From the IMG/VR virus record IMGVR_UViG_3300029319_008427, positions 1-48,856 of that record: a stretch of 48,856 nucleotides of DNA. One strand, 5' to 3'. Under the pieces are notes generated by a model. The model did not search any database, was not told where the DNA came from, and worked only from the letters and a program-made list of their open reading frames with translations. Each line of letters starts with the position of its first letter. The first letter of the stretch is position 1. This stretch comes from a virus. Positions 45,483 through 48,854 of this stretch are shown piece after piece. The translations under genes and the position numbers were made by a program.

Positions 45483-45785
45483 ATGAAACTCACAAAAGGG
45501 ATGATTAGGGACCTAATCAAAGAAGAAATCGAAGCTAGTTTAGAAGAAGCACCAAAGGTACCAGCACAGATTGATAGAGGCTTGGATATGGTGATGGGTG
45601 ATGGCGGCGACGAAAAAGTGCTAGCACAACTCGATAAGATGCTGGATGGTTTAGACCCACAGCGTCAGGCTGCCGCAGCACAAGCATTGCTTGCTCGTCT
45701 AGGTCTACCCGCAGACTTGAATAAGCTCAGATCAGCACTTGGTGCAGCACCAGAAGAGAAGCAAGGCGAGCAATCGGCAGAGTAA
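45483..45785 (+). CDS. Small acidic protein with type-A N-terminal tag (candidate internal head protein)
   Basis: A 100-residue acidic, Ala-rich protein. The first 16 residues (MKLTKGMIRDLIKEEI) are the type-A tag, with I12-x-E14 forming a T4-type prohead protease site (I/L-x-E). Downstream parts are helical: VLAQLDKMLDGLDPQRQAAA and ALLARLGLPADLNKLRSALG. It is the first of the tagged genes and has a strong AGGAG 7 bases before the ATG. An acidic, helical, tagged protein recalls the T4 prohead core proteins (gp67, gp68), so a scaffold or core role is possible. Confidence 0.6.
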   Translation: MKLTKGMIRDLIKEEIEASLEEAPKVPAQIDRGLDMVMGDGGDEKVLAQLDKMLDGLDPQRQAAAAQALLARLGLPADLNKLRSALGAAPEEKQGEQSAE

Positions 45786-45786
45786 A

Positions 45787-46242
45787 ATGCACAAGCTGTT
45801 TTCTACGTGGAAACAATTCCTGAATGAAGAGAAAATGTCTGATTTGGGAGGTGGAGATAAATACGTCGCCAAGGTTGGCGGCTTAAAAGTCGTTATTGAT
45901 TTAGACGATTTGGATCTACAAGCCACCAAGCATAGTAAAGAAAGACAATTTCGCCACGATAGGAAGATTTCCAACCAGGCAATTATAAGCGCAGTTGAGA
46001 TGGCTCTCGGCAAAATTATAAATGATTATGCAAATGGTGAGTTACAGAATGATGAGGCATTTCACATCAAAGCAGTCAGTAAAGCCAAATCAGTTCCTGA
46101 TCTTAATGTGATCGGCGTGCTCAACATGCAAAAGGGACCTGATACACTCAAGGTCATCACAGTTATGAGAAAAGATGACTTTAAGACTGACAATTTTGGC
46201 GGCGGACAGCAGAAGACGTATACAGTAAATCCGAGGCAGTAA
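45787..46242 (+). CDS. Protein with type-B N-terminal tag (candidate internal head protein)
   Basis: I start at ATG 45787 (151 residues), one base after the previous stop, not at the upstream in-frame GTG at 45739. The first 16 residues are MHKLFSTWKQFLNEEK: W8, K9, F11, L12-x-E14. The same positions recur in the gene at 48321. After the tag is a domain with HSKERQFRHDRKISNQAI, then a region ending LNVIGVLN and IKVITVMRKDDF-like strands (here LKVITVMRKDDF). I recall similar 'H..ER ... R.I ... ITVM' proteins in phages, possibly with a compact nuclease or toxin-like fold, but this is not established. Confidence 0.6.
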   Translation: MHKLFSTWKQFLNEEKMSDLGGGDKYVAKVGGLKVVIDLDDLDLQATKHSKERQFRHDRKISNQAIISAVEMALGKIINDYANGELQNDEAFHIKAVSKAKSVPDLNVIGVLNMQKGPDTLKVITVMRKDDFKTDNFGGGQQKTYTVNPRQ

Positions 46243-46246
46243 AACG

Positions 46247-46528
46247 ATGAAAATCACACACGACAGCCTTAGAGAACTTATACGTGAAGCAATCCTAGAC
46301 GAGAAGAAGAAAAAGCGTAAAGCTAAAAGAAAAGCGTCTAGCCGACGTAAAGCAAAGAAGAAAAAGAGACGTGTCAAGCGCAAGGCTAAGAAAGCCAAAA
46401 GAGACGCTTGCTACCACAAGGTTAAGGCACGTTATTCTGTGTGGCCTTCAGCTTACGCTTCGGGCGCTTTAGTAAAGTGTCGTAAAGTTGGCGCAGCGAA
46501 CTGGGGTGAAGGTGGTAAGAAGAAATGA
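46247..46528 (+). CDS. Highly basic histone-like protein with type-A tag
   Basis: A 93-residue, extremely basic protein. Residues 1-16 are the type-A tag (MKITHDSLRELIREAI), followed by LDE and a poly-Lys/Arg section (about 20-50, for example KKKKRKAKRKASSRRKAKK). The C-terminal domain (about 53-93) reads ACYHKVKARYSVWPSAYASG and ALVKCRKVGAANWGEG, a small Cys/aromatic module I recall from phages and giant viruses. Cleavage at I12-x-E14 would release a DNA-condensing protein, comparable with T4 internal proteins IPI-III. ATGA overlap joins it to the next, related gene. Confidence 0.65.
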   Translation: MKITHDSLRELIREAILDEKKKKRKAKRKASSRRKAKKKKRRVKRKAKKAKRDACYHKVKARYSVWPSAYASGALVKCRKVGAANWGEGGKKK

Positions 46529-46896
46529 GAATCACCAAAGACCAGCTACGGGAAATGATCAGAGAAGCACTTCTTGACGAAAAGAAGAAAAAGAAGAAGA
46601 AGAAGCGCAAGAAGAGAAAAGTAAAACGCAAGAAGCGCAAACTCACCAGTAAGCCAGGGTCAGAATCGAATCTTGGCGACTGGTTCAGGCGTAAGGGCGC
46701 ACCAGGCAAAAAAGGTGGCTGGGTTGACTGCAACGCTCCAAAATACAAAAAGGGCAAGAAAGTAGGCTATAAGTCCTGCGGTAGAGCCAAAGGAGAAAAA
46801 CGCTCCAAATATCCAGCTTGCCGTCCTACAGCCGCAGCTTGTAAGAAGCGATCAAAGAGTTGGGGCAAAAAAGCTAGAAAAGGTAAAAAAGGATGA
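46525..46896 (+). CDS. Highly basic protein with type-A tag and Cys-rich domain (DUF5872-like?)
   Basis: A 123-residue basic protein. Tag: MRITKDQLREMIREAL, then LDE and a poly-Lys/Arg stretch like that of the upstream gene, so both derive from one duplication with different C termini. Residues about 50-110 read GDWFRRKGAPGKKGGWVDCN, then YKSCGRAKGEKRSKYPACRP and TAAACKK. The WF..WVD..CGR..YPACRP signature resembles DUF5872, known from phages and giant viruses (from memory, to be confirmed by HMM). It probably binds DNA or cell components after packaging. Confidence 0.65.
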   Translation: MRITKDQLREMIREALLDEKKKKKKKKRKKRKVKRKKRKLTSKPGSESNLGDWFRRKGAPGKKGGWVDCNAPKYKKGKKVGYKSCGRAKGEKRSKYPACRPTAAACKKRSKSWGKKARKGKKG

Positions 46897-47399
46897 AGAT
46901 AAGTAAGGAAGAACTAAGAAAGATTATTAAAGAGGAAATACTCAAAGAGTCAGGACATACAGATGTCCCATCCTCTAGGGCTAATCTGTTTACTATTGTA
47001 GAAGACTGTGATGATATGCTCAAGATTTTATCGCAAGTACCTAAGCACGCCTCATTGCCAAGCTGGTGGACAAACAAGATTGCTGTCGCATCTAGCAAGC
47101 TCAATGCCTGTCGTGATTATTTGCTAACCTCTGTCGGCGGTGTTAGAGAAGAATCTATGGAAGAGTCGGATTCACTAGCCGAGAAGCAGTCAATCAACAT
47201 GAAAGAAGTTGAAATGAAAGAGGCAGTAATTATGAAGCATCTTACAGCGATGTTTGATGAACTAGGCAGAGAAGAACTGCCAAAAAGATTCTCAGAAAAG
47301 TCTTTACTAAAACCAATTATAGATCGTTACCTAGACGCTAGAAGGAATGTACGCATACCTTACTTTGATAAGTTAACAGGGAGAATGAAAAACAAATGA
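46893..47399 (+). CDS. Helical protein with type-A tag, unknown function
   Basis: A 168-residue protein. Tag: MKISKEELRKIIKEEI. The body begins with LFTIVEDCDDMLKILSQ and HASLPSWWTNKIAVASSKLN, a helical pattern ('LP.WW..KI..A...L') I recall from small proteins of phages. A second helical half (about residues 100-160) contains MKHLTAMFDELGREELPKRF. It is linked by ATGA overlaps on both sides. There is no catalytic motif. A packaged internal protein is inferred from the tag and the position in the array. Confidence 0.6.
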   Translation: MKISKEELRKIIKEEILKESGHTDVPSSRANLFTIVEDCDDMLKILSQVPKHASLPSWWTNKIAVASSKLNACRDYLLTSVGGVREESMEESDSLAEKQSINMKEVEMKEAVIMKHLTAMFDELGREELPKRFSEKSLLKPIIDRYLDARRNVRIPYFDKLTGRMKNK

Positions 47400-47710
47400 A
47401 AATATCTCAAGATGAATTAAGAAGTATTATCAAAGAAGAGATCGCCTCAGTGATTGCTGAATTTGACAAAGATAAAATGAAGTGCAATAAAAAGCGATAT
47501 ATTAGAAAAGGCGAGACTGGATACGGTAAGAAACAGAAGGTTGTCAAAGCGTGCGAGAAGGGCAAGGAAAGAATTGTCAAGTTTGGCGATGCTAAAATGA
47601 GAAATAATAGAGACAAAAAGAAAAACAGAAAGAACTTTAGGGTCCGACACAATTGTAAAAACCCTGGATCTAAATTAAAAGCAAGATATTGGGCTTGTAA
47701 GGACTGGTAA
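47396..47710 (+). CDS. Small basic protein with type-A tag and 'RHNC..PG..KARYW.C' domain
   Basis: A 104-residue basic protein. Tag: MKISQDELRSIIKEEI, followed by ASVIAEFDKDK. The body reads RIVKFGDAKMRNNRDKKKNR then KNFRVRHNCKNPGSKLKARY and WACKDW; FGD.xM..+RD...R+.F+.RHNC.NPG.K.KARYW.C is a motif I recall from many phages, some next to or within head genes. The cysteines and His might bind a metal. The start overlaps the previous stop (ATGA) and its end overlaps the next start (TAATG). Function is unknown. Confidence 0.6.
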   Translation: MKISQDELRSIIKEEIASVIAEFDKDKMKCNKKRYIRKGETGYGKKQKVVKACEKGKERIVKFGDAKMRNNRDKKKNRKNFRVRHNCKNPGSKLKARYWACKDW

Positions 47711-48150
47711 TGAAAAAGATAATCGTAAAGTGGAGAAAATTTGTTGATAGTGCTAAAAAGTATGTTTGCCCACCTGCAACACAAGATTTAGAACTCAACA
47801 CCAAGAACCGTGACGCCTCTATAAAAGCAGAACATATTCAGTACGGACCACTTAACGTAGATGAGCCAGGTGATTACTGGAAAGATATTGCCGAGTACTG
47901 GAACACAACCGAAGAGGCAGCTAAGAAATCAAATTGCAGCAACTGTGTTGCGTTTGATATTTCTCCACGAATGAAAGAATGTATGCCAGGCGAGACATCA
48001 GATGAAGATGGTGAACTAGGTTACTGCTGGATGCACCACTTCAAGTGCCACTCGGCCCGCTCGTGTCGAACATGGGCTAAGGGCGGACCAATAGATCAGG
48101 ATAAAGTATCCCACGACTGGCAGGATAGAAATAAGTTCCCAGAGGAGTAA
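47710..48150 (+). CDS. Cys-rich (possibly Fe-S) protein with degenerate type-B tag
   Basis: A 146-residue protein. The N terminus MKKIIVKWRKFVDSAKK has W8, R9, F11 and a hydrophobic residue at 12 as in type B, but position 14 is Ser, so the protease site is lost or not used. Later sections are YGPLNVDEPGDYWKDIAEYW and a Cys module with C76, C79, C91, C106, C113 and C119 (CSNCVAFD ... YCWMHHFKCHSARSC). Six cysteines with aromatic spacers recall high-potential iron-sulfur proteins, but a zinc site fits equally. It is in the tagged array, so it might be a packaged protein. Confidence 0.6.
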   Translation: MKKIIVKWRKFVDSAKKYVCPPATQDLELNTKNRDASIKAEHIQYGPLNVDEPGDYWKDIAEYWNTTEEAAKKSNCSNCVAFDISPRMKECMPGETSDEDGELGYCWMHHFKCHSARSCRTWAKGGPIDQDKVSHDWQDRNKFPEE

Positions 48151-48151
48151 C

Positions 48152-48319
48152 ATGCTAACCAGACACCTCAAAGAACAGAACATGACATATCTACAACACC
48201 TGTTACACGCTGGCAAATATTCTGCCAAGCTAATGTTGTGTGCGGGTGGCTTACTTATTCATGCAATATTTCCATTTATATTGGTAGATTTTGCATCAAA
48301 AAGAGTGGAGCTAAAGTAA
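48152..48319 (+). CDS. DUF6356-like small membrane protein (55 residues)
   Basis: A short gene between 47710-48150 and 48321-48854. It reads ML..HLKEQNMTYLQHLLHA, then GKYSAKLMLCAGGLLIHAIF and PFILVDFASKRVEL. The YLQHL ... HAIFPF pattern and length fit DUF6356, small proteins of bacteria and phages with one hydrophobic helix (about residues 26-46). AGGAG at 48143-48147 precedes the ATG at 48152. It does not have either tag. A holin-like or membrane-modifying role could be suggested, but nothing proves it. Confidence 0.65.
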   Translation: MLTRHLKEQNMTYLQHLLHAGKYSAKLMLCAGGLLIHAIFPFILVDFASKRVELK

Positions 48320-48320
48320 C

Positions 48321-48854
48321 ATGAAGCTTCTTATGGAACAATGGCGACAGTTTATAAATGAGGGCTCAAAGTTCAAGCTCAAGGGTGACTCCGAATACTT
48401 TCGTATTGACCTTCAGGGTATTGGTTATGCGCAAGGGATGCAACACCTAAGATTTAAAGAATGCCAGTCAGATGTTGACGCTCTTATGGAAACACCAGAA
48501 TTCATAAAAGCTAAAGAAAAATACGAAGCCAACAACACCACCAAAGATATGGCACAGGACGAAGACGGCAATTACTTTATGAAGGAAGTACCAGCTAAGT
48601 TCAGACCAAGATTTTATGATATAGAAAACGCATGGATCACAAACCCAGAACAAAGAGGTAAAGGGTACGGCAAAGAATTATACAAAGCATTTATCGCCCA
48701 GGCAGCAGAATACGCCAAGCCTTATGGCGGTGTGTTTGTTGGGGCTCACTACTGCACTATAGGTTCAGGAACCTCGGACGATGCCAAGAGAGTATGGAAA
48801 TCAATTACAAGGGACTACACATCATCAGGTGATGTGATATTTATAGGACTATGA
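48321..48854 (+). CDS. GNAT-type acetyltransferase with type-B N-terminal tag
   Basis: A 177-residue protein. Residues 1-16 are MKLLMEQWRQFINEGS, the type-B tag with I12-x-E14. Residues about 100-140 have the GNAT acetyl-CoA loop: IENAWITNPEQRGKGYG (Q/RxxGxG at 111-117) then KELYKAF helix and GVFVGAHY strand. The N-terminal strands are weaker than in ordinary GNATs, and the substrate is unknown. By analogy with T4 Alt, an ADP-ribosyltransferase packaged in the capsid and injected, this enzyme could be ejected with the DNA to modify a host target (inference). Confidence 0.65.
   Translation: MKLLMEQWRQFINEGSKFKLKGDSEYFRIDLQGIGYAQGMQHLRFKECQSDVDALMETPEFIKAKEKYEANNTTKDMAQDEDGNYFMKEVPAKFRPRFYDIENAWITNPEQRGKGYGKELYKAFIAQAAEYAKPYGGVFVGAHYCTIGSGTSDDAKRVWKSITRDYTSSGDVIFIGL

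Follow-up and report, generated by a model that had tools for sequence, protein, structure and literature searches.

A GNAT-like protein with a predicted capsid-targeting tag in a virus of marine bacteria

Our analysis suggests that the GNAT-like enzyme encoded at the end of the window is a cargo of a variant of the T4 capsid-targeted internal protein system, and the multi-tag cargo system to which it belongs is the interesting part of this result. By the window we mean the whole stretch of DNA analysed (48,856 nucleotides); it comes from the record of a virus of marine bacteria, a 49,244-base fragment, and head genes are absent from the window. We lean towards a reading in which the protein would be an enzyme targeted as cargo to a T4-type head, then injected to acylate a host macromolecule.

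The tagged gene and its neighbours

The first-pass annotation had placed a tagged ORF at the end of the window, with the motif QRGKGYG at residues 111–117 of its product, and this was confirmed: the ORF is intact, with an ATG start and a GGAG ribosome-binding site, and the motif is where it was said to be. Values of dN/dS against three near relatives (0.025–0.066) indicate that the ORF encodes a maintained, real protein. A tblastn search with this protein gave no matches in 50,697 phage records.

The gene closes a tagged run that starts at 45483, immediately behind tail and baseplate genes that share its strand (Table 1). For the second gene of the run, the tagged ATG at 45787 was preferred over a TTG at 45739. 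The three Lys/Arg-rich type-A proteins of the run (46247–46896 and 47396–47710) are probably DNA-binding internal head proteins. The CPPATQDL-family protein has lost its cleavage Glu (FVDS), and its relatives carry intact B tags; in T4, Asp in place of the cleavage Glu stops processing and leaves targeting (PMC9026906). Between the tagged genes lies a 55-aa membrane-like ORF (48152–48319, MLTRHLKEQNMTYLQHLL...), which is kept in the nearest long relative, G001, and in L003.

Table 1. Tagged genes of the run and features of the GNAT-like gene (positions in the window)
Feature	Position	Strand	Basis
Type-A tagged gene (MKLTKGMIRDLIKEE), first of the tagged run	45483..45785	+	Tag pattern
Type-B tagged gene (MHKLFSTWKQFLNEE)	45787..46242	+	Tag pattern; homologues tagged too
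Type-A tagged Lys/Arg-rich protein, 40% K+R	46247..46528	+	Tag pattern, composition
Type-A tagged Lys/Arg-rich protein, 41% K+R	46525..46896	+	Tag pattern, composition
Type-A tagged protein	46893..47399	+	Tag pattern
Type-A tagged Lys/Arg-rich protein, 33% K+R	47396..47710	+	Tag pattern, composition
CPPATQDL-family protein, decayed type-B tag (MKKIIVKWRKFVDS)	47710..48150	+	Tag pattern, relatives
Tagged GNAT-like gene, 177 aa	48321..48854	+	ORF call, homologues, dN/dS
Type-B tag, residues 1–14 MKLLMEQWRQFINE; predicted capsid-targeting propeptide, predicted cut after Glu14 (INE|G)	48321..48362	+	Tag logo, conservation drop after Glu, tag C in homologues, low-confidence model part
GNAT-like body, residues 15–177	48363..48851	+	AF2 model, Foldseek PDB matches
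Motif A RGKGYG, residues 112–117 (R-x-x-G-x-G)	48654..48671	+	14-sequence alignment
S152-x-x-A155-x-R-V-W159, helix alpha-4	48774..48797	+	14-sequence alignment

The tag, its cleavage motif and its exchange

A pattern scan of IMG/VR and of the genomes analysed, whose counts are lower bounds, found the type-B tag on at least 193 non-redundant proteins, which fall into at least 81 body clusters without mutual similarity. The search pattern itself determined M, K, W, [FY] and E, in part or completely, and these positions were excluded as evidence for conservation of the tag. The positions that the search left free (–11, –8, –4 and –1 from Glu) carry 1.2–1.8 bits and all twelve positions after Glu only 0.1–0.6 bits (one protein per cluster, among the matches listed); conservation thus ends at the Glu of the L/I-x-E motif. 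Individual contigs have 1–9 tags, against 0.0005–0.01 expected from shuffled N-termini, and the same patterns gave no match in the control, 177 kb of random viral contigs of small size. The tag named in the earlier annotation is therefore a genuine module. The nearest cultured myovirus, Flavobacterium phage immuto (160 kb), was considered as a tag carrier and rejected, having no canonical tags by the same patterns; one tag-like N-terminus (HKWQAKFLKES) is found just after its protease gene.

The tag of the GNAT-like protein ends in I-N-E|G, with INE at residues 12–14. The x-Glu ending is common to tags B and C, and an L/I-x-E ending is common to three otherwise different tags. In T4, a 10-residue capsid targeting sequence suffices for head loading and delivery of foreign proteins, and the prohead protease gp21 removes the propeptide at L/I-x-E (PMC9026906; PMC10229621). 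The N-terminus of T4 ipII and ipIII reads MKTYQEFIAE|A, and our tag agrees with the T4 sequence only at the MK start and the F-[IL]-x-E end. A gp21-type (Pfam S77) protease is encoded in 27 of the 31 tagged contigs of at least 119 kb, tagged contigs only being counted: 12 of 14 with tag B and 15 of 17 with tag C. It is present in G001. Contigs below 119 kb are fragments and mostly without this protease, and the window's own record, a 49-kb fragment, gave no S77 match. A site of this type (LKE|A and LRE|A) is also seen at residue 59 in the major capsid proteins of G001 and G004, and in G004 type-A tagged genes stand on both sides of the protease gene.

A search of IMG/VR with a pattern for the body only confirmed 24 loci, several of them near-identical copies, and a B- or C-type N-terminal tag is present in 22. 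Six carry tag B, 15 carry tag C (MNLLREYIRELLxE), one has a shifted C tag and the remaining two are one 1519-aa polyprotein. A homologue with tag C is also found on a bacterial MAG contig of phage-like appearance. GNAT bodies are up to 64% identical between tag types; the tags are unlike each other, and the switch falls at the predicted cut. This exchange is the strongest evidence for the proposed role of the tag. Some 18 other body clusters likewise appear under two or more tag types, among them 2H-type, RNase T/DnaQ-type, HAD and zeta-kinase-like bodies, although a few of these clusters may be chained, as they were built by single linkage at E ≤ 1e–6.

Together, the tag logo, the L/I-x-E end, the co-occurrence with S77 and the exchange lead us strongly to infer that the tag is an exchangeable capsid-targeting propeptide, and it is very likely that the GNAT-like protein would be packaged via it. 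The tag could also be a common module of another kind, for example a leader for membrane or translation, or an uncleaved peptide binding tail or scaffold, and the short helix predicted for it with low confidence would suit this. Such a module appears improbable, however, given the L/I-x-E end on three otherwise different tags, the exchange on homologous bodies and the co-occurring S77 protease.

Many S77 proteases themselves (L155–L167; L008:13928–14524) start with an L-L-x-E-[FYW]-like stretch resembling tag B, and a protein of about 140 aa that adjoins the S77 protease starts like tag A (MKKSELKKLIKPLIKE). Such resemblances raise the possibility that the tags imitate the N-terminal ends of prohead core proteins. 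L/I-x-E sites at the fusion junctions of L234, L250 and L245 were dropped as evidence, such motifs being too common.

The GNAT-like body

An AF2 model of the protein built on a 14-sequence alignment has a pLDDT of 86.8, a pTM of 0.81 and a GNAT-like order of elements; it supersedes an earlier model from 4 sequences (pLDDT 40). Its low-confidence part is residues 1–11, that is, the tag. The top PDB matches by Foldseek are mostly acetyl-CoA GNAT domains (the C-terminal domain of M. tuberculosis ICL2, Naa60, AAC(3) and SpeG), with E-values of about 1e–3 to 1e–2 and TM-scores of 0.3–0.4, low and modest values that make the GNAT fold probable, short of shown. Profile searches point the same way: PHROG 1249 (acetyltransferase) matches at E = 5.6e–4, and Pfam Acetyltransf_1 matches the motif-A segment only, at E = 0.0021 and 18.8 bits against a cut-off of 20.7. 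NCBIfam has no matches for this protein. A GNAT profile reaches E ≤ 0.01 in 7 of the 14 relatives. The GNAT assignment of the first annotation thus gains from the 14 aligned relatives and the confident model, while the family scores are weak and Pfam stays below its cut-off.

Residues R112, G115 and G117 of the R-x-x-G-x-G motif are invariant in the 14 divergent sequences, and so are S152, A155, V158 and W159 of alpha-4. Classical GNATs often have the catalytic Tyr at the alpha-4 position taken here by Trp159. It might be supposed from this replacement, from the weak family scores and from profiles that match the motif-A region only, that the body is a degenerate, non-catalytic GNAT fold, packaged as a binding protein, for example a defence inhibitor like T4 IPI. 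We find this rather unlikely, as R-x-x-G-x-G is invariant across such divergent relatives and the related tagged GNAT L331 reaches 29.8 bits, which clears the Pfam cut-off (20.7). The body is likely to be an acyl-CoA enzyme.

Proposed route, substrates and the shared cargo pool

Late in infection, the 14-residue tag, itself observed together with its exchange between bodies, would dock the protein on the scaffold core in the assembling prohead. The S77 (gp21-type) protease seen in relatives would then cut after Glu14, where the cut motif is found, and free a 163-residue GNAT-like enzyme inside the head. DNA would be packaged around the freed enzyme, and the enzyme would enter the next cell with it, as the internal proteins of T4 and Alt do; given packaging, this analogy makes injection very probable. 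The first-pass annotation had proposed a possible injected host-modifying enzyme. Packaging in the head and gp21-type release have good comparative support from the tag logo, L/I-x-E, S77, tag exchange and a tagged ART neighbour, and the injection step is drawn from the T4 parallel.

In the cell, the enzyme would most likely draw on acetyl-CoA of the host and transfer an acyl group to an amino group of a host macromolecule, disarming a defence or redirecting host functions ahead of phage gene expression. It would act within a set of at least 10 individually tagged cargos that includes an ART-PolyVal ADP-ribosyltransferase, an operon of tagged cargos being what we observe. We consider a host macromolecule the somewhat favoured substrate, with a host protein as a plausible target; alternatively, the enzyme could act on an internal protein of the phage, on aminoacyl-tRNA or on a small molecule. 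If the substrate were in the particle or phage-made, the enzyme might, for example, acetylate the upstream lysine-rich tagged proteins and loosen their hold on DNA before or during ejection. The three Lys/Arg-rich type-A tagged genes lie at most 2.1 kb upstream in the window, two Lys/Arg-rich tagged genes are upstream of the GNAT in G001, and Naa60 and polyamine acetyltransferases are among the fold matches. The presence of acetyl-CoA in the prohead is doubtful, however, and both polyproteins and operon pair the GNAT with ART, an enzyme of host-modifying type, so we hold such a substrate to be distinctly unlikely. It is also unlikely that the injected enzyme spares host proteins and modifies either a small molecule or, like GNAT toxins, aminoacyl-tRNA: the amino substrates of GNATs are varied and AAC(3) and SpeG are among the fold matches, but profile searches revealed no specific similarity to such families.

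With a host macromolecule as the favoured target, the proposed enzyme can be compared with known systems. Like T4 IPI–IPIII, it has a short N-terminal propeptide that ends in I-x-E and is common to unrelated bodies, with a gp21-family protease (here in relatives); unlike them, the tag has 14 residues with an invariant Trp, there are two or three alternative tag families, and cargos per genome are many more, many of them enzymes. As with T4 Alt, a packaged, injected host-modifying enzyme is proposed, in our case from sequence alone; Alt is an ADP-ribosyltransferase, whereas here we have a GNAT-like acyltransferase, though G001 has a tagged ART-PolyVal. Host takeover by phiKMV-like phages likewise involves a phage protein predicted to be a GNAT, Rac, which affects host RNA polymerase (alpha) (PMC7552054); it has no tag, is not described there as packaged and, by that account, is made after infection. 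The anti-CRISPR acetyltransferase AcrVA5 is also encoded by a mobile element and disarms a host defence protein, Cas12a (PMC9114340), but has no packaging tag. Packaged and injected GNATs and ARTs were predicted in polyvalent proteins by Iyer et al. 2017 (PMC5512222). Given that prediction and the account of Rac, the injected chemistry, which had been put forward as a different one for early takeover, is not new in kind. In open-access papers we found no account of these tags or their exchange; subscription papers and preprints were outside this scope.

In polyvalent proteins, too, GNAT and ART domains are predicted to be injected with phage DNA, but the enzymes of the present system are encoded singly, each bearing a predicted cleavable tag. 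The GNAT of G001 belongs to a series of tagged genes, ordered GNAT, a second GNAT-like gene and, two genes downstream of the GNAT, the tagged ART-PolyVal (32.9 bits; cut-off 31.2). The window's protein is a single domain, and several domains in one chain, as in polyvalent proteins, occur only in its homologues from L400 and L401. In this 1519-aa polyprotein (which, with the ORF after it, lies in the region L400:2144–8037 and in the same region of L401) the GNAT is matched at 620–675, followed at about 693–803 by a second domain called GNAT-like solely for its G-x-G-x-x-L-Y motif, with no Pfam matches. The ORF after it starts MIKPSASRVASRYAGR and holds the second GNAT-like domain and ART-PolyVal (42.7 bits), so that the separate tagged genes of G001 and the domains of L400/L401 follow the same order. 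Repeated ASRVASR[FY] motifs separate the domains, and the five SRVASR[FY]-like repeats look like a fourth tag type repeated within a polyvalent protein; the ORF downstream opens with this motif as well. No S77 protease was found in the L400 and L401 contigs (150 and 297 kb), an absence consistent with another way of loading. We conclude that the polyvalent-protein strategy (PMC5512222) and the tagged-cargo strategy draw on one cargo pool.

We are slightly inclined to go further and to see tags A, B and C as a general loading code of marine phages with an S77 protease, in which effector bodies would move between lineages and take the tag of the recipient head, polyvalent proteins being the fused counterpart and the GNAT one example. 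The pool of bodies proposed in this reading holds GNAT, ART, 2H-type, HAD, Nudix, HD, zeta-kinase-like, exonuclease and DUF3293 members. If true, the injected protein repertoire of uncultured phages could be read from tags in sequence, giving candidate effectors and enzymes against host defence by the hundred, and the internal proteins of T4, few in T-even phages, would represent a general delivery system. The GNAT would then be an acetyltransferase packaged on its own; until now, cargos of this type have only been predicted, in polyvalent proteins or as solo late genes.

Two further kinds of tagged body were noticed. DUF3293 (L172:3001–3498) is the body of the largest B-tagged cluster, and Flavobacterium phage elemo has it as a domain in a giant structural protein. 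Two tagged proteins with 2H-phosphoesterase-like HxT motifs and no Pfam matches (L036:3006–3455 and L178:7426–7887) are candidate injected anti-signalling enzymes.
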